From assembly GCF_009498275.1 (NCBI RefSeq), contig NZ_CP045643.1, positions 3,720,001-3,784,000 on the forward strand: a DNA stretch of 64,000 nt, given 5' to 3'. The DNA is from Streptomyces fagopyri (GTDB lineage Bacteria > Actinomycetota > Actinomycetes > Streptomycetales > Streptomycetaceae). The translations under genes were made by a program, and so were the position numbers. This document shows, piece after piece, positions 43,863 to 64,000 of the stretch. Under the pieces are notes generated by a model. It did no database searches, had not been told where the DNA came from, and saw only the letters and a program-made list of their open reading frames with translations. Every line of letters starts with the position of its first letter. The stretch's first letter is position 1.

Positions 43863-44006
43863 CCTCGGGCTGTCCGCCGGGCTGCGCCTCGGCCTGCGCC
43901 TCGGGCTGTCCGACGGTCTGTGCCTCGGCCTGCGCCTCGGGCTGTCCGACGGTCTGTGCCTCGGTCAGCGCCTCGGGCTGTCCGACGGTCTGTGCCTCGG
44001 TCAGCG
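43863..44006. repeat. 36-bp tandem repeat, four copies, abutting deoR stop
   Basis: Units begin at 43863, 43899, 43935 and 43971, each starting CCTCGGGCTGTCCG. On the minus strand one frame reads a clean 12-residue repeat (EAQTVGQPEAQA). The deoR stop at 44001-44003 falls inside the last copy in a different frame. Not CRISPR: no spacers and perfect codon-length periodicity. Confidence 0.75.
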
Positions 44007-44963
44007 GCGGCGTAAATCCGCCACCCGCGCCCGCTCTCCGGGAGACTGCTCTCCCAGGGAGGTCGCGCTGCGCAACTGCGGCCCGGCGCCCGGGACCTGA
44101 CCGCGCCGCGGACCGGGGAGGGGCACGTCCCGGCGCGGCTGACGCCCCGCCGGGGCCGTATCGCCCCCCGTACCACCGCCCGACTGCCCCGCCACCGCGA
44201 TCTGCACGCCCTGATCCGCCAGCGCCTGCAGTTCGGTGACCGCGCGATCGTCGTGCGCGGGCGGCTCATCGGTCACCAGACGGGTGATCAGATCGGTCGG
44301 TACCGTCTGGAACATGGTGTCGGTGCCGAGCTTGGTGTGGTCGGCGAGGACCACGACCTCCCCGGCGGCCTGCACCAGCGCGCGGTCGACGGACGCCGAC
44401 AGCATGTTGGAGGTGGACAGGCCCCGCTCGGCGGTGAGCCCACTGCCCGACAGGAAGGCCCGGGACACCCGCAGCCCCTGGAGGGACTGCTCGGCACCGC
44501 TGCCCACCAGCGCGTAGTTGGAGCCGCGCAAGGTGCCACCCGTCATGACGACCTCGACACGGTTGGCGTGGGCCAACGCCTGGGCCACCAGCAGGGAATT
44601 GGTGACGACGGTCAGCCCGGGCACCCGCGCGAGCCGGCGAGCCAGCTCCTGCGTCGTGGTACCCGCGCCCACCACAATGGCCTCGCCCTCTTCGACGAGA
44701 CCCGCGGCGAGATCGGCGATGGCCGTCTTCTCGGCGGTCGCGAGATGCGATTTCTGCGGAAAGCCGGACTCCCGCGTGAACCCGCCCGGCAATACCGCAC
44801 CGCCATGCCGGCGGTCGAGGAGTCCTTCTGCCTCCAGTGCGCGCACGTCCCGCCGTACGGTCACTTCGGAGGTCTGGACGACGCGGGCGAGCTCACGGAG
44901 CGACACGGCCCCGTTCGCTCGCACCATTTCGAGGATCAATTGGCGACGTTCTGCAGCGAACAC
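44001..44963 (-). CDS. DeoR-family transcriptional regulator, 320 aa
   Basis: The N-terminal winged helix-turn-helix (ERRQLILEMVRANGAVSLRE, TSEVTVRRDVRALEAEGLLD) and the sugar-phosphate-binding DeoR domain (about 75-250; VVGAGTTTQELARRL, VVTNSLLVAQAL, ADHTKLG) are complete. Family members sense phosphorylated sugars or nucleoside-derived pentose phosphates. The usual length is about 255; residues 260-320 are a Gly/Pro/Arg-rich tail ending RVADLRRR at the edge of a tandem repeat, and the tail may continue in another frame in relatives. It lies 3-9 kb from pnp and deoC and is a candidate regulator of them, unproven. Confidence 0.88.
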   Translation of the reverse strand: MFAAERRQLILEMVRANGAVSLRELARVVQTSEVTVRRDVRALEAEGLLDRRHGGAVLPGGFTRESGFPQKSHLATAEKTAIADLAAGLVEEGEAIVVGAGTTTQELARRLARVPGLTVVTNSLLVAQALAHANRVEVVMTGGTLRGSNYALVGSGAEQSLQGLRVSRAFLSGSGLTAERGLSTSNMLSASVDRALVQAAGEVVVLADHTKLGTDTMFQTVPTDLITRLVTDEPPAHDDRAVTELQALADQGVQIAVAGQSGGGTGGDTAPAGRQPRRDVPLPGPRRGQVPGAGPQLRSATSLGEQSPGERARVADLRRR

Positions 44964-47188: not shown

Positions 47189-47200
47189 CTACGCGCGTAG
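47189..47200. promoter_or_regulatory. CTACGCGCGTAG palindrome upstream of pnp (candidate operator)
   Basis: A perfect 12-bp palindrome 20-31 bp before the pnp ATG, just upstream of a TACCCT -10-like hexamer (47213-47218). The identical palindrome is in the deoC promoter at 52915-52926. A repressor bound here would cover the -35 region. Confidence 0.6.
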
Positions 47201-47219
47201 GCCCCGACCGGCTACCCTC

Positions 47220-48050
47220 ATGCGCGTGAACGCATCTCTTCTTCCGGACGACATCCACGGCGACCCCTACGCCGCTGCCGACGCCGCCGCCACACGCCTG
47301 CGGGAGCTCACGGGCGCCGAGACCCACGACGTCGCGCTCGTGATGGGCTCCGGCTGGGCTCCGGCCGCGGACGCCCTCGGCTCCCCCGAGGCCGAGTTCC
47401 CGGTCACCGAGCTGCCCGGGTTCCCCCCGCCCGCGGTCGAGGGCCACGGCGGCAAGGTCCGCTCGTACCTGATCGGCGACAAGCGGGCCCTGGTCTTCCT
47501 CGGGCGCACCCACTACTACGAGGGCCGCGGTGTCGCCGCCGTCGCGCACGGTGTCCGTACGGCCGTCGCCGCGGGCTGCAAGACCCTCGTGCTCACCAAC
47601 GGCTGTGGTGGCCTGCGCGCGGACATGCGTCCCGGCCAGCCGGTGCTGATCAGCGACCACATCAACCTGACGGCGACCTCCCCGATCGTCGGGGCGAACT
47701 TCGTCGACCTCACCGACCTCTACTCCCCGCGTCTGCGCGCCCTCTGCAAGGAGGTGGACCCCACCCTGGAGGAGGGCGTCTACGCGCAGTTCACCGGGCC
47801 GCACTACGAGACGCCGGCCGAGATCCGGATGGCCCGCGCCATCGGGGCCGACCTCGTCGGCATGTCCACGGTCCTGGAGGCCATCGCCGCGCGCGAGGCC
47901 GGGGCCGAGGTGCTGGGCATCTCCCTGGTCACGAACCTCGCCGCCGGTATGACGGGCGAGCCGCTGAACCACGAGGAGGTCCTCCAGGCGGGCCGTGACT
48001 CCGCGACCCGCATGGGCGCGCTGCTCACCCAGGTCCTGGACCGCCTGTAG
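47220..48050 (+). CDS. Purine-nucleoside phosphorylase (trimeric type), 276 aa
   Basis: Splits purine (deoxy)ribonucleosides with phosphate to base and (deoxy)ribose-1-phosphate. Signature blocks: [11 protein letters not shown] with the phosphate-binding Ser, [54 protein letters not shown] and [18 protein letters not shown]. Length fits the low-molecular-mass trimeric class. ATG 47220 or GTG 47226 may be used; TACCCT lies seven bases before the GTG, so leaderless translation from 47226 is possible. An operator-like palindrome sits just upstream. Downstream are a phosphosugar mutase and, further, deoC, completing a route for the sugar. Confidence 0.94.
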
Positions 48051-48380
48051 GAGCCACGCCCCTGCCCCCCGGCGCGCCCCGGTCCCCGGGTGTGCCTCGG
48101 TCCCCTGACGCGCCCCGGTCCCCAGGTGTGCCGTGCGACGGTGTGCCGTCCGGCCGCGGGCGGGCGGGGCCGGACATGCGGTTCCCCCCTGCTCCCCGGG
48201 CGGGGTCGCGTCCCGGATCTCCGGGCGGGCGGAACAGGACCCGGGCGGGTGCGGTCGCGTGGGGGCCGGTCGCGCGTTTCCCCGCGCCTCCGGAACGGGC
48301 AGGGAAGGCGGCGGGGGCGGACAAGCCCGCCGCGGCCGGGGTATACAGCAAGGCACCACAGACAGAGAGGTACACCCGAC
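48051..48380. other. 330-bp gap with a short direct repeat
   Basis: No gene supported. Near-identical 24-mers begin at 48073 and 48109 (CGCGCCCCGGTCCCC-GGTGTGCC), 36 bp apart. The phosphomutase ribosome site and promoter should lie in the last 60 bases, which are less GC-rich (48340-48380). Confidence 0.5.
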
Positions 48381-50018
48381 GTGCAGGACGAACTCATCGC
48401 GCGGGCCGAGGCGTGGCTGGCCGAGGACCCCGACGCGGAGACCCGTGAGGAACTCGCCAAGCTCATCGACGCCCGCGACGTCACCGAGCTCGCCGCACGC
48501 TTCAGCGGCACCCTCCAGTTCGGCACCGCGGGTTTGCGGGGCGAACTCGGCGCGGGCCCGATGCGTATGAACCGCGCGGTGGTCATCCGCGCCGCCGCCG
48601 GCCTGGCCGCGTACCTCAAGGCGAAGGGCGAGACGGGCGGTCTCGTCGTCATCGGCTACGACGCCCGCCACAAGTCCGCCGACTTCGCGCGCGACACCGC
48701 CGCGGTGATGACGGGCGCGGGCCTGCGGGCCGCCGTGCTCCCCCGCCCCCTCCCCACGCCCGTCCTGGCCTACGCCGTACGGCACCTCGGTGCCGTGGCG
48801 GGCGTCGAGGTCACCGCCAGCCACAACCCGCCCCGCGACAACGGCTACAAGGTGTACCTGGGCGACGGCTCCCAGATCGTCCCCCCGGCGGACGCCGGGA
48901 TCGCGGCCGAGATCGACGCCGTCACCCGCCTCGACACCGTCCCCCGCCCGGACAGCGGCTGGGAGACCCTCGACGAGGGCGTCCTGAACGCCTATCTGGC
49001 CCGTACGGACGCGGTACTCGACGAGGGCTCCCCCCGCACCGCCCGCACCGTCTACACGGCGATGCACGGCGTCGGCAAGGACGTCCTGCTCGCCGCGTTC
49101 GCCCGCGCCGGCTTCCCCGCCCCCGTACTGGTCGCCGAACAGGCCGAGCCGGACCCGGATTTCCCCACCGTCGCCTTCCCGAACCCGGAAGAGCCCGGCG
49201 CGATGGACCTCGCCTTCGCGAAAGCCCGTGAGACGGATCCCGATCTGATCATCGCCAACGACCCCGACGCGGACCGCTGCGCGGTGGCCGTGAAGGGCCG
49301 CGAGGGAACGGACTGGCGGATGCTGCGCGGCGACGAGGTCGGCACGCTGCTCGCCCGGCACCTGGTCGACCGCGGAGCCCGCGGCACCTTCGCCGAGTCG
49401 ATCGTCTCCTCCTCCCTCCTCGGCCGGATCGCCGAGAAGGCGGGTCTGGCGTACGAGGAGACCCTGACCGGCTTCAAGTGGATCGCCCGCGTGGAGGACC
49501 TGCGCTACGGCTACGAGGAGGCGCTCGGCTACTGCGTCGACCCCGAGGGCGTGCGTGACAAGGACGGCATCACCGCGGCCCTCCTGATCACGGAGCTCGC
49601 CTCCCGGCTCAAGGAGGACGGCCGCACCCTGCTGGACCTGCTCGACGACATCGCCGTGGAGCACGGCCTGCACGCCACGGACCAGCTCTCCGTCCGGGTC
49701 GAGGACCTCTCGGTGATCGCGAACGCCATGCGCAGCCTGCGCGAGCGGCCTCCGACGCTGCTGGCGGGCCTGCCCGTCACCAAGGCCGAGGACCTCACCC
49801 TGGGCACGGACAGGCTCCCGCCCACGGACGGTCTGCGCTACACGCTGGACGGCGCCCGCGTCATCGTCCGCCCCAGCGGCACGGAGCCGAAGCTGAAGTG
49901 CTACCTGGAGGTCGTGGTCCCGGTCGGCTCGCACGCCGGACTCCCCGCGGCCCACGCCGAGGCCGCCGAGCTGCTCACCGCCATCAAGCGCGACCTGTCG
50001 GCGGCGGCCGGCATCTGA
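48381..50018 (+). CDS. Alpha-D-phosphohexomutase-family phosphosugar mutase, candidate phosphopentomutase, 545 aa
   Basis: Full PGM/PMM-fold enzyme. The phosphoserine loop is VTASHNPPRDNGYKVY; the start FGTAGLRGELGAGPMRMN binds phosphosugar; the metal loop is NDPDADRCAVAV; the sugar loop GFKWIARVEDLRYGYEEALGY and the phosphate-binding RPSGTEPKLKCYLEV complete the four domains. Usually called phosphomannomutase, but its place right after pnp and before deoC, mirrored by pmmB beside deoD in mycobacteria as I recall, suggests it interconverts (deoxy)ribose-1- and -5-phosphate. That is inference. GTG 48381 has GAGAGG ten bases upstream; the frame is open further upstream without coding character. 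Confidence 0.9.
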   Translation: MQDELIARAEAWLAEDPDAETREELAKLIDARDVTELAARFSGTLQFGTAGLRGELGAGPMRMNRAVVIRAAAGLAAYLKAKGETGGLVVIGYDARHKSADFARDTAAVMTGAGLRAAVLPRPLPTPVLAYAVRHLGAVAGVEVTASHNPPRDNGYKVYLGDGSQIVPPADAGIAAEIDAVTRLDTVPRPDSGWETLDEGVLNAYLARTDAVLDEGSPRTARTVYTAMHGVGKDVLLAAFARAGFPAPVLVAEQAEPDPDFPTVAFPNPEEPGAMDLAFAKARETDPDLIIANDPDADRCAVAVKGREGTDWRMLRGDEVGTLLARHLVDRGARGTFAESIVSSSLLGRIAEKAGLAYEETLTGFKWIARVEDLRYGYEEALGYCVDPEGVRDKDGITAALLITELASRLKEDGRTLLDLLDDIAVEHGLHATDQLSVRVEDLSVIANAMRSLRERPPTLLAGLPVTKAEDLTLGTDRLPPTDGLRYTLDGARVIVRPSGTEPKLKCYLEVVVPVGSHAGLPAAHAEAAELLTAIKRDLSAAAGI

Positions 50019-50027
50019 CACCGGTCC

Positions 50028-50062
50028 GGTGGGCCCACCGAGCTGGACCGGGTGGGCCCACC
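50028..50062 (+). repeat. Twin GGTGGGCCCACC palindromes after the phosphomutase
   Basis: The 12-bp palindrome occurs at 50028-50039 and 50051-50062, each followed by GAGC. The first is 10 bases past the stop. Paired hairpins may terminate transcription or attenuate read-through into the membrane protein gene. Confidence 0.55.
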
Positions 50063-50237
50063 GAGCGGGTCACGCGGCCCCACGGAGCGGGGCCGGGCCC
50101 ACCGGGCGCCCCGCACCACCCCTCCACCGCCCTTACGGGTGATTTCCGCCCGGCACTTGACGCAGCGCTCCCGTGCGCCGCCACCCGACCGAGGAACGGT
50201 TACCGGTAGCGCACCGCCGAGTCCCAGGAGCTGCCGC

Positions 50238-51461
50238 GTGTCCCCGACCGCTTCCCGGCCGACATCCGCCCCGTCCCGGAACTCCCCCGGCGGCCTCCTC
50301 CCGGACGCCACCCCGAGCGGCCGGCTCCCCGGGGCCGCGGCCGGCCTCGCGGCCTCTCTCCGCACCCAGCTGGGCCGGGCCGCCCCCGCGCTGCTCGCCT
50401 ACGCGGCCGTACGTCTGGTGGGGCTGCTCGTCCTCGCGCTCTGGGCGCACGCCCAGCACCACGGCGTCCGGCCGATCCTGGCGACGCAGTGGGACGCGAA
50501 CTGGTACCTGGGCATCGCGCGGCACGGCTACGCACACCGGCTGGGCACGGCCCACGACGCCAACAACCTCGCCTTCTTCCCGCTCTACCCGTTCCTGGTG
50601 AGGGCGGTCGCGGCGCTGACGCCGGGCACCGCCGCGACGGCGGGCCTGCTGATCACGGTGGCCGCCTCCTTCCTCGCCGCGTGGGGGGTCTTCGCCGTCG
50701 GACACCGTCTCCACGGCCGCCGCGCGGCCGTGCTGCTGACCGTCCTGTGGGCGGCCCTCCCGGTCGGTCTCGTGCAGTGGATGGGGTACACGGAGTCCCT
50801 GTTCACCGCGTTCGCGGCCTGGTCGCTGTACGCGGTGCTCAGCGAACGCTGGCTCTGGGCGGGCTGGCTGGCGGCGCTGTCCGGCCTGACCCGCCCCACC
50901 GGCATCGCGGTCGCGGCCGCCGTCACCGTCACGGCGCTGCTCGCACTGCGCCACCGCTTCTCCTCCCGTGCCCTCGTGGCCGCCGCCGTCGCCCCCGCCG
51001 GCTGGCTCGCCTACGTCGGCTGGGTGGGGCTGCGCCTCGGCCGCTGGGACGGCTACTTCGCCGTACAGCGCCTCTGGCACAACGAGTGGGACGGCGGCGC
51101 CGAGACCCTGCGCCGGATGCGGGAGGTACTCGTCACCGACTCGACGCCCGAGCTGTTCCTGGTGATGGTGACGGTGACGCTGGCGGCCTGCACGGCGCTC
51201 TACGTCCTGTGCGTCTGGGACCGCCAGCCGCTCCCCCTGCTGCTCTTCACCGGCGTCCTGCTGCTCATCGTGCTGGGCAGCGGCGGCGTCTACTTCCCCC
51301 GGGCCCGCTTCCTCCTGCCGGGCTTCCCGCTGCTGCTCCCGGTGGCCCTGTACCTGTCGCGGGCGTCACGCCGCTTCCTGACGCTGGCCCTGGGCACCGC
51401 GGTACTGGGAGGCGCGTACTGCGGCGCGTACATGGTCCTGGTCTGGCCGAGCGCGCCCTGA
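50238..51461 (+). CDS. PIG-V-like membrane mannosyltransferase-family protein, 407 aa
   Basis: Polytopic membrane protein with about nine hydrophobic segments (for example ALLAYAAVRLVGLLVLALWA, AATAGLLITVAASFLAAWGV, LPLLLFTGVLLLIVLGSGGV). The extracytoplasmic loop after helix 1 has WDANWYLGIARHGY, corresponding to the acidic loop of GT-C glycosyltransferases of the PIG-V type. In actinobacteria such enzymes use polyprenyl-phosphate sugars to modify lipids or proteins. GTG 50238 has AGGAG eight bases upstream; a longer frame to 50052 lacks coding character. Donor and acceptor unknown. Confidence 0.82.
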   Translation: MSPTASRPTSAPSRNSPGGLLPDATPSGRLPGAAAGLAASLRTQLGRAAPALLAYAAVRLVGLLVLALWAHAQHHGVRPILATQWDANWYLGIARHGYAHRLGTAHDANNLAFFPLYPFLVRAVAALTPGTAATAGLLITVAASFLAAWGVFAVGHRLHGRRAAVLLTVLWAALPVGLVQWMGYTESLFTAFAAWSLYAVLSERWLWAGWLAALSGLTRPTGIAVAAAVTVTALLALRHRFSSRALVAAAVAPAGWLAYVGWVGLRLGRWDGYFAVQRLWHNEWDGGAETLRRMREVLVTDSTPELFLVMVTVTLAACTALYVLCVWDRQPLPLLLFTGVLLLIVLGSGGVYFPRARFLLPGFPLLLPVALYLSRASRRFLTLALGTAVLGGAYCGAYMVLVWPSAP

Positions 51462-51520
51462 ACGGCGTCCGCCGGGTGTCCCGAGCCCCCCTCGCCCCGC
51501 GACGCGGGATGCCGCGCACG

Positions 51521-51541
51521 GGCCGGACACGGGGTCCGGCC
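51521..51541 (+). terminator. Possible terminator after the PIG-V-like gene
   Basis: GGCCGGAC (51521-51528) pairs with GTCCGGCC (51534-51541) around ACGGG, 60 bases past the stop. Confidence 0.4.
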
Positions 51542-51560
51542 GGCCCCGCCCGGCCCCGCC

Positions 51561-51710
51561 CTATCCGAAACGCCCGTTCACGTAGTCCGTCGTACGCGGG
51601 TCCCGCGGGTCCCGCGGGTCCCGCGGGTTGTCGAACATCGCGTCCGTGGACTCGTGTTCGACGATGCCACCGGGAGTGCCCTGCTCGGCGAGGAAGAACG
51701 CGCCGCCGGG
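51561..51710 (-). pseudogene. C-terminal remnant of phosphate ABC transporter ATPase pstB
   Basis: The last about 49 codons on the minus strand read GGAFFLAEQGTPGGIVEHES, then TDAMFDNP, then RTTDYVNGRFG at a TAG stop. The FF..GxIVE...DxxFxNPxDpRTxDYVxGRFG pattern is the conserved C-terminus of PstB. Upstream no Walker or signature motif is present in any frame, so it is a 3'-end fragment. Between NP and RTT the tripeptide DPR is repeated, from three extra exact 9-bp TCCCGCGGG units at 51601-51627. It lies between unrelated genes and suggests a lost duplicate of pstB. Confidence 0.7.
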
Positions 51711-51962
51711 CTGCCGGAGCCCCTCGCGAGCCGGTCCTTCACCACGTCGCGGTGAGCGTCGTCCGCTGGTGGGCCTCACGGGCGACCCGGCGCCGTCGGG
51801 GAGGCGGACGGACGGGACAACGGGCGATCGGGGCTGCGGACCGGCGGGACGGCCGGCGGTCGTACGCGGCGGCCACGCTCCTCACCCACCCCGGCGAACG
51901 GGCACCGCCCGGCCACCACCCCGGTGAACCGGCGACAGCCCACCCGTCTCAGCTCCGTGGCG

Positions 51963-52610
51963 TCAGCCCACCGCGAGCAGGATGGCCAGCACCACGGCCC
52001 CCGCGAGCGCGGGACCCATGACCTCGTACGCCCAGCGCACGCTGACCGCGCCCTGCCCCCCTTCGGTGGCCGGGTGCGCCTCGGCGAGCTCGCGCAGGTC
52101 GTCCATGGCCTGGTCGGCCTGGGCGCGCGCGGGCGCGGGCGACGCCGTGGCCGGGGACACGCGCCCGCCGCTGTCGGCCGCCGCCCCCCGCGCCTGCCGC
52201 TTGGCCGCGCGCTTGCGGGAGCGCAGCGAGACGGGGATCGACCACAGTTGGTACTTGGCGCCGTCGGTGGTGACGACCTCGTTGGAGTAGCCGGAGCGCA
52301 GCGTGGCGATCGCGCTCCAGGGCACCACGATCACGCGGAACGGGTTGCGCACGCGCAGCCGCTCCTCGTTCGCGAAGACGGCCGGGCGCAGGGTGAAGGC
52401 GCTCACCAGCGGAACCAGCAGGATCAGCGCGGCGAGCGTCAGCCACGGGGTGCGCCCGTGTCCCGAGACCAGCGCGTCGATGCCGAGCCAGCCGATGATG
52501 GCGAGCAGCACCACGCCGCCCGCGATGCCGGCGGACGACCGGTAGATCCGGTCCCTCGACTCGGGGTGCGAGGCGTCCGGCGGGGGTGGCTGGTGATCGG
52601 GCGTCGTCAT
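51963..52610 (-). CDS. PH-domain membrane protein, 215 aa
   Basis: Two N-terminal helices (IAGGVVLLAIIGWLGIDAL and LTLAALILLVPLVSAFTL) are followed by a bacterial PH-like domain (EERLRVRNPFRVIVVPWSAI, LRSGYSNEVVTTDGAKYQLW) and an Arg/Ala-rich stretch, then a final helix (AYEVMGPALAGAVVLAILLA). The ATG is complementary to 52608-52610. Such proteins are common single genes in Streptomyces; proposed roles are membrane stress sensing or scaffolding, not established. It is divergent from deoC across an extremely C-rich gap. Confidence 0.82.
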   Translation of the reverse strand: MTTPDHQPPPPDASHPESRDRIYRSSAGIAGGVVLLAIIGWLGIDALVSGHGRTPWLTLAALILLVPLVSAFTLRPAVFANEERLRVRNPFRVIVVPWSAIATLRSGYSNEVVTTDGAKYQLWSIPVSLRSRKRAAKRQARGAAADSGGRVSPATASPAPARAQADQAMDDLRELAEAHPATEGGQGAVSVRWAYEVMGPALAGAVVLAILLAVG

Positions 52611-52914
52611 GCCCCCGATTCTGCCCGACGGTCGACGGCGGCCTCCTCCGCCCCCGCCGCGACGCCCGTTCCCCCACCCCCGCGACCTCGCCGCTTCCCA
52701 CCGAGCGGCCGCACCACCCCGCCACCGCCCACCGACCCGCCACGCCGCCCGCCGCCGCCCGCCCGCCGCGCCGCACCGGCCGCGCCGCCGCCCCACCCGC
52801 GACGCCGCCCCGCCGCCGACCCGCGCACCACCCGCCACCCGCCACCCGCCTCCACACCCCGCCCGCCCCTCTCCCCCGCTTTCCCCCATCACCCGTCCCG
52901 GGGCTGTACAGCCG
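52611..52914. other. Extremely C-rich intergenic region
   Basis: From about 52640 to 52890 the + strand is built almost wholly of CCGCC/CCACC words, strongly C over G, giving Pro/Arg/Ala frames that are compositional artefacts. No gene supported. It separates the PH-domain gene from deoC. Confidence 0.6.
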
Positions 52915-52926
52915 CTACGCGCGTAG
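52915..52926 (+). promoter_or_regulatory. CTACGCGCGTAG palindrome overlapping the deoC -10 region (candidate operator)
   Basis: Identical to the palindrome before pnp. It overlaps TAGATAT (52924-52930), a good -10 element, with in-frame GTG 52937/52940 and ATG 52946 just downstream. A bound repressor would block RNA polymerase. Confidence 0.62.
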
Positions 52927-52945
52927 ATATGCTCGGGTGGTGACC

Positions 52946-53941
52946 ATGCCCACCACCGCACCCTCCCCCAAGCACTCGACATCGCTCGAGCAGGGTGGTG
53001 CCCCCACCCACGCACTCGGCGACGTGACCTCGTCCGACAGCACCCTGCGCCGCTTCCTGCACGGGTTGCCCGGCGTCGACGCGGTCGGCCTGGAGGCGCG
53101 CGCCGCCTCGCTCGGCACCCGTTCCATCAAGACGACCGCGAAGGCGTACGCGATCGACCTCGCCATCTCGATGGTCGACCTGACGACGCTGGAAGGCGCG
53201 GACACCCCGGGCAAGGTCCGGGCGCTCGGCGTCAAGGCGGTCCACCCGGACCCGACCGACCGCACGGCGCCCGCCACCGCCGCGGTCTGCGTCTATCCCG
53301 ACATGGTGGCCACCGCCAAGGAGGCCGTGGCCGGCTCCGGTGTGAAGGTCGCCTCCGTGGCCACCGCCTTCCCGGCGGGACGCGCCGCGCTCGACGTGAA
53401 GCTGGCCGACGTGCGGGACGCCGTCGCCGCGGGCGCCGACGAGATCGACATGGTCATCGACCGCGGGGCGTTCCTCGCGGGCCACTACCTGAAGGTGTAC
53501 GACGAGATCGTCGCGGTGAAGGAGGCCTCGGGCGCCGCCCGCCTGAAGGTCATCTTCGAGACCGGCGAGCTGTCCACCTACGACAACATCCGCCGGGCCT
53601 CCTGGCTCGGCATGCTGGCCGGCGCGGACTTCATCAAGACGTCCACCGGCAAGGTGGCCGTCAACGCGACGCCGTCGAACACGCTGCTCATGCTGGAGGC
53701 GGTCCGCGACTTCCGCGCGCAGACCGGCGTCCAGGTCGGCGTGAAGCCGGCCGGCGGCATCCGTACCACCAAGGACGCCGTCAAGTTCCTGGTCCTGGTG
53801 AACGAGACCGCGGGCGAGGACTGGCTGGACAACCACTGGTTCCGCTTCGGCGCGTCCTCGCTCCTGAACGACCTGCTGATGCAGCGTCAGAAGCTGGCCA
53901 CCGGCCGCTACTCCGGCCCCGACTACGTGACGGTGGACTGA
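52946..53941 (+). CDS. deoC: Deoxyribose-phosphate aldolase DeoC, 331 aa
   Basis: Cleaves 2-deoxyribose-5-phosphate to acetaldehyde and glyceraldehyde-3-phosphate. The class I aldolase Schiff-base lysine is in GADFIKTSTGKV, the activating lysine in GVKPAGGIRT, and the catalytic Asp in the EIDMVIDRG block. At 331 residues it is the long actinobacterial form with an N-terminal extension. Start ATG 52946 has GGGTGG upstream; GTG 52937 or 52940 are possible leaderless starts from the TAGATAT promoter. The aldehyde dehydrogenase follows after 5 bp, so its acetaldehyde can be oxidised at once. Confidence 0.95.
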   Translation: MPTTAPSPKHSTSLEQGGAPTHALGDVTSSDSTLRRFLHGLPGVDAVGLEARAASLGTRSIKTTAKAYAIDLAISMVDLTTLEGADTPGKVRALGVKAVHPDPTDRTAPATAAVCVYPDMVATAKEAVAGSGVKVASVATAFPAGRAALDVKLADVRDAVAAGADEIDMVIDRGAFLAGHYLKVYDEIVAVKEASGAARLKVIFETGELSTYDNIRRASWLGMLAGADFIKTSTGKVAVNATPSNTLLMLEAVRDFRAQTGVQVGVKPAGGIRTTKDAVKFLVLVNETAGEDWLDNHWFRFGASSLLNDLLMQRQKLATGRYSGPDYVTVD

Positions 53942-53946
53942 TCACC

Positions 53947-55383
53947 ATGGCATCTGCATTCGAGTACGCGCCCGCGCCCGAGTCCCGCGCGGTCGTCGAC
54001 ATCGCCCCCTCGTACGGCCTGTTCATCGACGGTGAGTTCACCGAGGCGGCGGACGGCAAGGTCTTCAAGACGGTCAGCCCCAGCACGGAGGAGGTCCTCT
54101 CCGAGGTCGCCCGGGCGGGCGCCGAGGACGTCGACCGCGGCGTGAAGGCGGCCCGCAGGGCCTTCGAGAAGTGGTCGGCGCTGCCCGGTTCCGAGCGCGC
54201 CAAGTACCTCTTCCGCATCGCCCGCATCATCCAGGAGCGCTCCCGCGAGCTCGCCGTCCTGGAGACCCTGGACAACGGCAAGCCCATCAAGGAGACCCGC
54301 GACGCCGACCTCCCCCTGGTCGCCGCGCACTTCTTCTACTACGCGGGCTGGGCCGACAAGCTCGACCACGCCGGTTTCGGCGCGAACCCGCGTCCGCTGG
54401 GCGTGGCGGGCCAGGTCATCCCCTGGAACTTCCCGCTGCTGATGCTGGCCTGGAAGATCGCCCCGGCGCTGGCGACCGGCAACACCGTCGTCCTCAAGCC
54501 CGCCGAGACCACGCCCCTGTCGGCGCTGTTCTTCGCGGACATCTGCCGCCAGGCGGGCCTGCCCAAGGGCGTCGTCAACATCCTTCCGGGATACGGCGAC
54601 GCGGGCGCGGCCCTCGTCGAGCACCCGGACGTGAACAAGGTCGCCTTCACCGGCTCCACGGCCGTCGGCAAGGCGATCGCCCGCCAGGTGGCCGGCACCG
54701 ACAAGAAGGTCACGCTCGAACTGGGCGGCAAGGGCGCGAACATCGTCTTCGACGACGCCCCCATCGACCAGGCCGTCGAGGGCATCGTCACCGGGATCTT
54801 CTTCAACCAGGGCCAGGTCTGCTGCGCCGGCAGCCGGCTCCTCGTCCAGGAGTCGATCCAGGACGAGCTGCTGGACGCCCTCAAGCGCAGGCTCTCCACC
54901 CTGCGGCTGGGCGACCCGCTCGACAAGAACACCGACATCGGCGCGATCAACTCCGCCGAGCAGCTGGCCCGAATCACCTCGCTCGTCGAGCAGGGCGCGG
55001 CCGAGGGCGCCGAGCGCTGGTCCCCGGCGTGCGAACTGCCCTCCTCCGGTTACTGGTTCGCCCCGACGCTGTTCACCAACGTCACCCAGGCGCACACCAT
55101 CGCCCGCGACGAGATCTTCGGCCCGGTGCTGTCCGTCCTCACCTTCCGTACCCCGGACGAGGCCGTCGCCAAGGCCAACAACTCCCAGTACGGCCTGTCG
55201 GCGGGCATCTGGACGGAGAAGGGTTCCCGGATCCTGGCCGTCGCGGGCAAGCTGCGCGCGGGCGTCATCTGGTCCAACACGTTCAACAAGTTCGACCCGA
55301 CCTCGCCGTTCGGCGGATACAAGGAGTCGGGCTTCGGCCGCGAGGGCGGTCGCCACGGCCTGGAGGCGTACCTCGATGTCTGA
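53947..55383 (+). CDS. Aldehyde dehydrogenase, 478 aa
   Basis: NAD(P)-dependent oxidation of aldehydes to acids. PWNFPLLMLAWKIAPALATG binds the cofactor, FTGSTAVGKAI is the nucleotide loop, LELGGKGANIV carries the catalytic Glu, and NQGQVCCAGSRL holds the nucleophile Cys292 (with Cys293 next to it). EIFGPVLSVLTFRTPDEAV and the PFGGYKESGFGREGG end are canonical. The gene begins 5 bp after deoC and overlaps the next gene by 8 bp, so the three are one operon. Acetaldehyde from DeoC is the obvious substrate, making acetate. Confidence 0.94.
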   Translation: MASAFEYAPAPESRAVVDIAPSYGLFIDGEFTEAADGKVFKTVSPSTEEVLSEVARAGAEDVDRGVKAARRAFEKWSALPGSERAKYLFRIARIIQERSRELAVLETLDNGKPIKETRDADLPLVAAHFFYYAGWADKLDHAGFGANPRPLGVAGQVIPWNFPLLMLAWKIAPALATGNTVVLKPAETTPLSALFFADICRQAGLPKGVVNILPGYGDAGAALVEHPDVNKVAFTGSTAVGKAIARQVAGTDKKVTLELGGKGANIVFDDAPIDQAVEGIVTGIFFNQGQVCCAGSRLLVQESIQDELLDALKRRLSTLRLGDPLDKNTDIGAINSAEQLARITSLVEQGAAEGAERWSPACELPSSGYWFAPTLFTNVTQAHTIARDEIFGPVLSVLTFRTPDEAVAKANNSQYGLSAGIWTEKGSRILAVAGKLRAGVIWSNTFNKFDPTSPFGGYKESGFGREGGRHGLEAYLDV

Positions 55384-56275
55384 CAAGTCCGAAGAGCAGC
55401 GTCTGAGTGTCTTCAAGACCTACAAGCTGTACGTGGGCGGGAAGTTCCCGCGTTCCGAGAGCGGCCGGGTGTACGAGGTGACGGACTCGAAGGGCAAGTG
55501 GCTGGCGAACGCCCCGCAGTCGAGCCGCAAGGACGCCCGTGACGCGGTGGTCGCCGCGCGCAAGGCGTTCGGCGGCTGGTCCGGCGCGACCGCGTACAAC
55601 CGCGGCCAGATCCTCTACCGCGTCGCCGAGATGCTGGAGGGCCGCCGGGACCAGTTCGCGCGCGAGGTCGCGGACGCGGAGGGCCTGTCGAAGGCGAAGG
55701 CGGCCGCCCAGGTCGACGCGGCCGTCGACCGCTGGGTCTGGTACGCGGGCTGGACCGACAAGATCGCCCAGGTCGTGGGCGGGGCCAACCCGGTCGCGGG
55801 CCCGTTCTTCAACCTGTCGACCCCGGAGCCGACCGGTGTCGTCACCGTCCTCGCGCCCCAGGAGTCCTCGTTCCTCGGCCTGGTCTCGGTGGTCGCCCCG
55901 GTGATCGCGACCGGTAACACGGCCGTGGTGATCGCGAGCGAGAGGTCGCCGCTGCCGGCGCTGTCGCTCGGCGAGGTGCTGGCGACCTCCGACCTCCCGG
56001 GCGGTGTCGTCAACGTCCTCTCCGGCAGGACGGCGGAGATCGCCGCTCCCCTCGCCGCCCACCAGGACGTCAACGCGATCGACCTCGCGGGCGCGGACGA
56101 CGTGCTGGCGAAGGAACTGGAGATCGCCGCGGCCGACAACCTGAAGCGGGTCCTGCGTCCACAGCCTGTGGACTACGCGGCGACCCCCGGCATCGAGCGA
56201 CTCACGGCCTTCCTCGAGACGAAGACCGTCTGGCACCCGACCGGTTCACTGGGCGCGTCGGGCTCGTCGTACTGA
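55376..56275 (+). CDS. Catalytically incomplete aldehyde dehydrogenase homologue, 299 aa
   Basis: Aligns with the N-terminal cofactor half of aldehyde dehydrogenases (YKLYVGGKFPRSESGRVYEV, NRGQILYRVAEMLEGRRDQF, TGVVTVLAPQESSFLGLVSV, IATGNTAVVIASERSPLPAL), but after the nucleotide-binding half it lacks the LELGGK glutamate, the cysteine loop and the FGP block, and ends with a short tail (KTVWHPTGSLGASGSSY). It is not a fresh truncation: the reading frame and codon bias are intact to the stop, and it overlaps the catalytic paralogue by 8 bp. I recall the same pairing in other actinobacteria. Likely a structural partner or regulator of the neighbouring enzyme. Confidence 0.85.
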   Translation: MSDKSEEQRLSVFKTYKLYVGGKFPRSESGRVYEVTDSKGKWLANAPQSSRKDARDAVVAARKAFGGWSGATAYNRGQILYRVAEMLEGRRDQFAREVADAEGLSKAKAAAQVDAAVDRWVWYAGWTDKIAQVVGGANPVAGPFFNLSTPEPTGVVTVLAPQESSFLGLVSVVAPVIATGNTAVVIASERSPLPALSLGEVLATSDLPGGVVNVLSGRTAEIAAPLAAHQDVNAIDLAGADDVLAKELEIAAADNLKRVLRPQPVDYAATPGIERLTAFLETKTVWHPTGSLGASGSSY

Positions 56276-58712: not shown

Positions 58713-59390
58713 GTGCCTTCCCTGTTGCTGATCGAGGACGACGACGCCATCCGTACGGCCCTGGAGCTCTCTTTGACTCGCCAGGGACACCGTGTGGCCA
58801 CCGCTGCCACCGGCGAGGACGGTCTGAAGCTGCTGCGTGAGCAGCGGCCGGACCTGATCGTGCTGGATGTGATGCTGCCCGGCATCGACGGGTTCGAGGT
58901 GTGCCGGCGCATCCGGCGCACGGACCAGTTGCCCATCATTCTGCTGACCGCGCGCAGCGACGACATCGACGTGGTGGTCGGGCTGGAGTCCGGCGCCGAC
59001 GACTATGTCGTCAAACCGGTGCAGGGACGGGTGCTCGACGCCCGTATCAGGGCCGTGCTGCGCCGAGGCGAGCGCGAGGCCAACGACTCGGCGTCGTTCG
59101 GCTCCCTCGTCATCGACCGGGCGGCGATGACGGTCACCAAGAACGGCGAGGACCTCCAGCTGACGCCCACCGAGCTGCGGCTGCTCCTGGAGCTGAGCCG
59201 CCGTCCCGGACAGGCGCTGTCCCGCCAGCAGTTGCTGCGACTGGTCTGGGAGCACGACTACCTGGGCGACTCGCGTCTGGTGGACGCGTGTGTGCAGCGG
59301 CTGCGCGCGAAGGTCGAGGACGTCCCGTCCTCCCCCACGCTCATCCGTACGGTCCGCGGGGTCGGCTACCGGCTGGACAGTCCTCAGTGA
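58713..59390 (+). CDS. afsQ1: Response regulator AfsQ1 (OmpR type), 225 aa
   Basis: Receiver domain (1-120) with acidic pocket Glu8-Asp9-Asp10 (LLIEDDDA), phosphoacceptor Asp52 (LIVLDVMLPG) and Lys in VVKPVQG, then an OmpR winged helix (about 130-225: LTPTELRLLLELSRRPGQAL, VDACVQRLRAKVED, RTVRGVGYRL). GTG 58713 is chosen because it places the phosphorylation site at Asp52, the number used for S. coelicolor AfsQ1, and gives 225 residues; ATG 58704 is three codons upstream. It activates antibiotic regulators and sigQ. It overlaps afsQ2 by GTGA. Confidence 0.96.
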   Translation: MPSLLLIEDDDAIRTALELSLTRQGHRVATAATGEDGLKLLREQRPDLIVLDVMLPGIDGFEVCRRIRRTDQLPIILLTARSDDIDVVVGLESGADDYVVKPVQGRVLDARIRAVLRRGEREANDSASFGSLVIDRAAMTVTKNGEDLQLTPTELRLLLELSRRPGQALSRQQLLRLVWEHDYLGDSRLVDACVQRLRAKVEDVPSSPTLIRTVRGVGYRLDSPQ

Positions 59391-63176: not shown

Positions 63177-64000
63177 TCAGACCTGATCCTCCGAAGAACC
63201 CCTGGTGGAAGCAGTCTGCTGGAACAGCCATTCGGACTTCAGCTCGGCATATCCGGGCTTGATCACGTCATTGATCATCGCGAGTCGTTCATCGAAAGGA
63301 ATGAATGCTGACTTCATAGCATTGACCGAGAACCACTGGAGATCGTCGAGCGAATAACCGAACGCGTCGACAAGATGCTCGAATTCACCGCTCATGCTGG
63401 TCCCGGACATGAGCCGGTTGTCCGTGTTCACCGTGACCCGGAAGTGCAACCGCCGCAACAACCCGATCGGGTGCTCGGCGTAGGAGTCGGCCGCGCCGGT
63501 CTGGAGGTTGGAACTGGGACAGAGCTCCAGCGGGACGCGCTTGTCGCGGACGTACGAGGCGAGGCGCCCGAGCGTCACCGAGCCGTCCTGCGCGACCTCG
63601 ATGTCGTCGATGATCCGGACACCGTGGCCGAGCCGGTCCGCCCCGCACCACTGGAGCGCCTGCCAGATGGACGGCAGCCCGAAGGCCTCGCCCGCGTGAA
63701 TGGTGAAATGGTTGTTCTCGCGCTTGAGGTACTCGAACGCGTCGAGGTGCCGGGTGGGCGGGAAGCCGGCCTCGGCCCCCGCGATGTCGAACCCGACGAC
63801 ACCCATGTCCCGGTAACGGTTGGCCAGTTCGGCGATCTCCAGCGAGCGGGCCGCGTGCCGCATCGCGGTGAGCAGCGCGCCCACCCGGACGCGGTGGCCG
63901 TTCTCCCGCGCCCGGCGCTCACCCTCGCGGAAGCCCTCGTTGACCGCCTCCACGACCTCTTCGAGGGTGAGTCCGCGCTCCAGGTGCTGCTCGGGGGCGT
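63177..64000 (-). CDS. add: Adenosine deaminase (5' end outside window)
   Basis: The C-terminal 273 residues are present and the start lies beyond the right edge. The zinc-site acidic motif [15 protein letters not shown] carries the catalytic glutamate; [20 protein letters not shown] and [19 protein letters not shown], with the active-site Asp, are intact. It converts (deoxy)adenosine to (deoxy)inosine, which PNP (47220) can phosphorolyse. No frameshift is seen. An upstream operator cannot be checked here. Confidence 0.93.

Follow-up and report, generated by a model that had tools for sequence, protein, structure and literature searches.

Genes and promoters at the locus

We analysed a window of 64,000 nucleotides from Streptomyces fagopyri, covering positions 3720001–3784000 of its 8,880,330-base-pair (bp) single-contig genome. 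The perfect 12-bp palindrome CTACGCGCGTAG occurs here in the promoter of pnp, which encodes a purine nucleoside phosphorylase, and again in that of deoC, which encodes deoxyribose-phosphate aldolase. As argued below, it is likely to be the operator of a family-wide nucleoside regulon, with a DeoR-family protein encoded in the same window as candidate repressor. The relevant features, in window positions, are as follows.

44001–44963, reverse strand: DeoR-family regulator, candidate repressor (PF08220 and PF00455)
47189–47200: candidate operator CTACGCGCGTAG of the pnp promoter, over the −35 position
47213–47218, forward strand: predicted pnp −10 element TACCCT, from the consensus GcTACcCTC...gcgtgAacgc in 80 loci
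47226–48050, forward strand: pnp, purine nucleoside phosphorylase (NCBIfam TIGR01698, 346.8 bits; cut-off, 302.6)
48090–50018, forward strand: phosphomannomutase-family protein, starting 40 bp downstream of pnp; no match reaches its curated cut-off, gene order kept in outgroups
52901–52912: second perfect 12-bp dyad, GGCTGTACAGCC, with a putative −35 element TGTACA (TgTACAgCC in a 61-locus consensus)
52915–52926: candidate operator CTACGCGCGTAG of the deoC promoter, in the −35/−10 spacer
52929–52934, forward strand: predicted deoC −10 element TATGCT, from the 61-locus consensus
52940–53941, forward strand: deoC, deoxyribose-phosphate aldolase (Pfam PF01791)
53947–55383, forward strand: aldehyde dehydrogenase (Pfam PF00171), 5 bp after deoC and likely in the same operon
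55376–56275, forward strand: second aldehyde dehydrogenase-family gene (Pfam PF00171), overlapping the first
63177–64000, reverse strand: 3′ part of add, adenosine deaminase (Pfam PF00962; whole gene at L005:3177-4331)

Both exact copies lie where a first-pass annotation, made from the letters of the window, had placed them; the only other match in the window within two mismatches is at 59301, with two. That annotation began pnp at ATG 47220, but the conserved start is GTG 47226, and the transcript is apparently leaderless. At deoC it had the palindrome overlapping a −10 element read as TAGATAT. An overlap does exist with an alternative element, TAGATA, but the best conserved choice of promoter, TGTACA (52905–52910) and TATGCT (52929–52934) separated by 18 bp, would place the palindrome in the spacer, ahead of a predicted leaderless GTG start at 52940. 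In the extended 14-mer consensus that had been proposed, the flanking T and A vary from site to site. At add, four bases separate the site from a downstream TACAGT (TTAGAGT in relatives), with a leaderless ATG start predicted, and at a second add gene in eight other genomes (G007, G026, G033, G063, G067, G099, G162 and G189; gene family checked for one) it spans codon 3 to codon 7. The placements at pnp, deoC, add and the second add suit repression, the mode of control that the first-pass annotation had read from pnp and deoC.

The phosphomannomutase-family gene is likely to belong to the pnp operon, and its product is possibly a phosphopentomutase. Directly next to the deoC operator, the GGCTGTACAGCC dyad shows partial conservation across 61 loci and may either contain the −35 element or be the target of a second regulator. 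In two other genomes the deoC operator is doubled in opposite orientation, the copies being 323 bp (L173, genome G063) and 70 bp (L181, genome G012) apart, as though this part of the promoter had undergone an inverted duplication.

Genomic placement and conservation of the palindrome

Because 6 of the 39 distinct perfect 12-bp palindromes in this GC-rich window are present twice, repetition alone is weak evidence, and the earlier argument that an exact repeat at two promoters is unlikely by chance draws its force instead from placement across the genome and from conservation. By mononucleotide composition, CTACGCGCGTAG would be expected 0.007 times in the window and 0.97 times genome-wide. The genome contains four, at 3767189 (pnp), 3772915 (deoC), 3784348–3784359 and 3796332, compared with none for the reversed control pattern across all 8,880,330 bp. 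All four fall inside 29 kilobases (kb), each at an operon for nucleoside catabolism or uptake. The third is in the add promoter, just past the window edge; the fourth is upstream of same-strand genes for an ATP-binding cassette (ABC) transporter ATPase, two permeases, a cytidine-deaminase-type (cdd) and a pyrimidine-nucleoside-phosphorylase-type (deoA) enzyme, adjoining a gene for a PnrA-like lipoprotein. From their spacing we infer that the transporter, cdd and deoA-type genes form one operon. The exact palindrome is therefore not scattered over the genome, and it reaches the add, deoA, cdd and transporter genes at which the first-pass annotation had suggested looking for it.

A fair measure of conservation comes from loci chosen by the pnp protein rather than by the site. 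We used two such sets, the 80 best of 574 named loci, all from named Streptomyces, and 30 loci fetched by protein match among 80 genomes of the order, the genome of S. fagopyri included; both consist of close relatives (pnp identity of about 91% or more, and up to 96% between the window and one named Streptomyces). The site upstream of pnp is exact, and at a fixed distance, in 80/80 named loci, and exact in 30/30 loci of the second set; at deoC it is exact in all 61 named loci with a deoC match. The orthologous promoters have thus kept the palindrome. In the aligned named loci, each of its columns holds 2.00 bits, compared with 0.26–1.47 bits in the flanks.

The add and transporter loci were seen only as loci fetched through CTACGCGCGTAG itself, which biases the rates. 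In a collection of loci mostly fetched in this way, sites were exact at 34 pnp genes (three more with one mismatch and one with two), at 7 deoC genes (one more with one mismatch), at 27 add genes (one without) and at 11 ABC operons (seven without); in the eight add and ABC cases without a near site, the site is present farther from the predicted start.

The palindrome was found in all 101 sampled genomes of the genus, with two to six copies each (384 in total, compared with 56 for the reversed control), and in 120 of 121 genomes of the family. The exception, G109, has a deoC site with one mismatch and a pnp site with two. Outside the family, 7 of 181 genomes sampled across the class carry an exact copy, six of them a single one and G298 three. 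We rejected these as operators of the cluster, as none was seen at a cluster gene: G298, G291, G364 and G318 gave no match to any of 16 cluster query proteins, and in G313, G323 and G376 no cluster gene starts within 400 bp of the copy. Similarly, three of the 15 outgroup genomes contain the exact 12-mer once, in no case near a cluster gene. In ten stretches that belong to two outgroup families of the order, the gene order of biotin carboxylase, lpd, pnp and pmm is kept, with deoC as well in eight, and no copy within one mismatch occurs anywhere in them.

Probable extension to nucleic-acid scavenging genes

The genome of S. fagopyri also has 14 sites with one mismatch.

L010, L012 and L016: proteins that combine a 5′-nucleotidase C-terminal domain with a metallophosphatase domain and carry what appear to be export signals; two are closest to 2′,3′-cyclic-nucleotide phosphodiesterase/3′-nucleotidase
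L019: ExeM/NucH-type extracellular endonuclease (incomplete piece, below the curated cut-off)
L014: exported-looking protein with a GmrSD_C domain, which we take to be HNH-like; site in the first codons
L013: xanthine/uracil-type permease
L011: purS, above the cut-off
L020: secreted protein without an assigned function; relatives carry an exact site
L007: carbon–nitrogen hydrolase, assignment uncertain
L008 (oligopeptide permease (Opp) operon), L009 (rpoB 5′ region), L015, L017 and L018: no clear link

Eight of the 14 are at fitting genes, a count of gene classes made without a random-site control, and the regulon therefore probably extends beyond nucleoside genes to nucleic-acid scavenging, which is wider than the first-pass annotation had proposed. 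A role for L007 in pyrimidine breakdown was considered and dropped, its best match being N-carbamoylputrescine amidase, below the cut-off.

Conservation of the one-mismatch sites was followed at orthologues in those relatives that hold exact sites. Among the matches listed, we examined 34 additional exact sites in family genomes, of which 22 are in fitting classes and two are second deoC copies. The 22 comprise eight second add genes, six genes for a secreted protein, four purN, one purS, two HAD phosphatases and one Opp operon; the phosphatase and Opp classes are weak. The purS site is in G154 (L095). The purN sites are in four genomes, all of one other genus, with the gene identified by Pfam (L157 and L162), by translation (L161) or by promoter similarity only (L164); the two phosphatases were identified by Pfam (L171) and by translation (L033). 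The Opp-type operons L008, in S. fagopyri, and L169, in G011, were rejected as clear orthologues (identities of 44% for the permease, 30% for the binding protein and at most 65% for the ATPase).

The six secreted proteins (L158, L160, L163, L165, L170 and L179) are relatives of the L020 protein. Genes of this family have the operator in their promoter, and in the five proteins aligned the motifs AGNADWIISTS and SDHTxxDRNNDG are invariant; a function in nucleic-acid scavenging is possible. An AlphaFold model of the secreted protein had a mean predicted local distance difference test score (pLDDT) of 41.8 and was not used. At another of the extra exact sites, L159 (G190), three related palindromes, CACTACATATGTAGTG, CACTACGCGCGTAGTG and CACTACGTGCGTAGTG, follow one another and are probably the site of a different regulator.

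Expression and previous reports

Production of a heterologous cellulase in Streptomyces lividans is accompanied by joint upregulation of SCO4917 (pnp), SCO4914 (deoC) and SCO4901 (add), with log2 changes of 3.70, 3.24 and 2.16, respectively; these are 3 of the 30 rows of Table 3 of that report, for one condition (PMC6302529). SCO4901 and three putative nucleases are reported as far more abundant, by up to tenfold, in Streptomyces coelicolor than in S. lividans (PMC7244524). Both reports are consistent with co-regulation, and the available parts of them name no cause. SCO4920, the S. coelicolor DeoR-family protein, centres a network module in a study whose available part does not mention nucleosides (PMC3224704), and appears in a table of glucose-responsive regulators (PMC4848846); SCO4885 is given as a putative nucleoside-binding lipoprotein (PMC6593405). 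Among the matches listed from the open-access literature, we found neither CTACGCGCGTAG described as a regulatory site in Streptomyces nor a regulator of nucleoside salvage in this genus; two papers that contain the 12-mer concern, in the parts available, DNA structures and GapR.

A candidate DeoR-family repressor and the alternatives

The protein encoded at 44001–44963 combines a DeoR-type helix–turn–helix (HTH) domain (HTH_DeoR, PF08220; 53.6 bits, cut-off 21) with a DeoRC sensor domain (PF00455; 167.6 bits, cut-off 31.8). Its score against the equivalog of Escherichia coli-type DeoR (NF007961) is 73.4 bits, below the cut-off of 244, and its sensor region matches a chain of PDB entry 7l6l named deoxyribose operon repressor (E = 1.2e-7). 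A match to the gene was found in 121/121 family genomes, and in all 78 named loci that hold both genes it is 1.8–3.0 kb from pnp. Among 83 distinct proteins, most of them from Streptomyces, with four other genera represented by a single locus each, the N-terminal 60 residues, which form the HTH, have 59 invariant positions, compared with 111 in the next 198, and in 100 loci no stop occurs before residue 258. The gap between lpd and biotin carboxylase holds no DeoR gene in nine of the ten outgroup stretches, and the tenth (L312), which ends 0.9 kb past lpd, shows none there; relatives in the 15 outgroup genomes are all at most 44% identical. Synteny, co-occurrence and the near-invariant HTH make this protein the best candidate binder, as judged from sequence comparison. 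They support the suggestion of the first-pass annotation that it is a candidate binder.

We consider it likely that CTACGCGCGTAG is the operator of a family-wide regulon for nucleosides, and probably also for nucleic-acid scavenging, that is bound and repressed by this DeoR-family protein and released by a sugar phosphate. The comparative part of this reading comprises the exact, position-specific conservation at pnp and deoC, the further copies found at add and at the ABC operon, and those with one mismatch at secreted nucleotidase- and nuclease-type, permease and purS genes. The protein would bind the palindrome as a dimer and would repress by covering the −35 element, the spacer between −35 and −10, or the first codons. 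A pentose phosphate from nucleoside phosphorolysis, deoxyribose-5-phosphate or ribose phosphate, would then free the operator, as the sensor family and the pathway suggest. A broader version, for which we hold a little less than even confidence, is that a single DeoR-family repressor with a 12-bp operator governs, throughout the Streptomyces family, every stage by which nucleic acid outside the cell reaches central metabolism, and that it also touches purine synthesis through purS and purN. These stages would take in secreted nucleases and nucleotidases, the uptake of nucleosides and bases, phosphorylases, deaminases and the aldolase, and the repressor would link the reuse of nucleic acid of dying mycelium to a signal from pentose phosphate.

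Several observations count against the proposed DeoR-controlled regulon. Within two mismatches the genome has 301 matches, compared with 591 for the reversed control, so that imperfect copies, taken together, show no numerical enrichment; 6 of the 14 one-mismatch sites are unexplained or uncertain, and 10 of the 34 extra exact sites are unexplained (L056, L061, L083, L159, L167, L168, L174, L175, L176 and L177). The transporter operon, cdd and deoA are absent from Table 3 of the cellulase study (PMC6302529). The SCO4914 promoter is listed as bound and repressed by WblC (PMC7157823), and an argR mutant is reported to have less SCO4914 protein (PMC3293853); deoC therefore has other inputs. The best NCBIfam match of the DeoR-family protein is AgaR, below the cut-off (184.8 of 260 bits). 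Its own promoter has no site with fewer than three mismatches in 78 named and 22 other loci, and we rejected autoregulation through CTACGCGCGTAG on this basis. Relatives outside the family (54–68% identity), whose HTH is similar, are encoded in different surroundings, in some cases next to ABC-transporter genes; in the 14 such stretches examined there is no site within one mismatch, and several have one with two. The DeoR match in G176, a genome with four exact sites, falls into two reading frames, and for 12 genomes of the family the best-matching stretch includes a stop codon. Finally, the gain of the site and the gain of the DeoR gene may represent one event on one branch rather than many independent ones.

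The alternative that best survives is that the operator is real and is bound by a regulator encoded elsewhere, of the LacI, GntR, TetR or a similar family, with the DeoR gene a bystander kept in place by gene order. Short palindromes with a central CG resemble LacI-type sites, which fits such a binder, as do the missing operator copy at the DeoR gene itself and the out-of-family relatives, which lie among different genes and lack such a site. In four taxonomic groups, moreover, rhamnose regulators of the DeoR family are described as using direct-repeat motifs (PMC3870299). However, in the loci examined the DeoR gene is the only regulator found always beside the cluster, it was not found at the outgroup loci that lack the site, and its HTH is nearly invariant. 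The DeoR sensor family is also one that binds sugar phosphates. We regard an unlinked binder as unlikely, while giving it some weight. Far less probable is the LysR-type regulator that adjoins add. Its gene is immediately upstream of add even in distant genera (L156, L183 and L184), but in G109 its best match is only 47% identical, and we disfavour it because G106, with four exact sites, has no match at E ≤ 1e-50. A chance repeat in GC-rich DNA, for which the five other palindromes present twice in the window might speak, is refuted by the genome-wide placement and the conservation, and we give it almost no credence.

Comparison with known systems

In E. coli, the repressors DeoR and CytR jointly control nucleoside phosphorylases, deaminases, the aldolase and transporters, and DeoR, whose site is TGTTAGAATTCTAACA, responds to a sugar phosphate derived from nucleosides; the deo system of Bacillus works alike. 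The Streptomyces arrangement, as known from sequence, resembles these in placing phosphorylase, deaminase, aldolase and transporter operons under what would be one control. It differs in its operator, as CTACGCGCGTAG is unlike TGTTAGAATTCTAACA, in a regulator that scores below the DeoR equivalog cut-off, and in the extension of the palindrome to secreted nucleotidase- and nuclease-type genes and purS.

Other described regulators offer partial parallels. NupR of Bacillus thuringiensis also regulates nucleoside transport and belongs to another protein family (GntR/HutC) and host (PMC9430930). PunR of E. coli, with punC, similarly concerns the transport of purines and purine nucleosides, but the title of that report names one transporter, and no link to CTACGCGCGTAG was seen in its available part (PMC8376909). 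The RhaR proteins also belong to the DeoR family and regulate a sugar pathway, and their motifs were likewise inferred by comparative genomics; these motifs, as described, are imperfect direct repeats with a period of 10–11 bp rather than a 12-bp palindrome (PMC3870299).

A family-wide operator would point to a regulator and to a list of targets that includes secreted proteins without an assigned function, and it offers a testable link from primary metabolism to the reuse of nucleic acids as colonies age. How nucleoside uptake and breakdown are controlled matters in practice as well, as Streptomyces are major producers of antibiotics, some of which are nucleosides.

One further observation concerns the ATPase gene of the nucleoside ABC operon (L005:14642-16303, reverse strand; genome positions 3794642–3796303), which has an apparent ATC (AUC) start codon that is conserved and is preceded by AGGAG, conserved as well. 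No in-frame ATG, GTG or TTG is present back to the preceding stop codon in 7 of 11 loci, and in the other four the nearest is 84–216 bases upstream.

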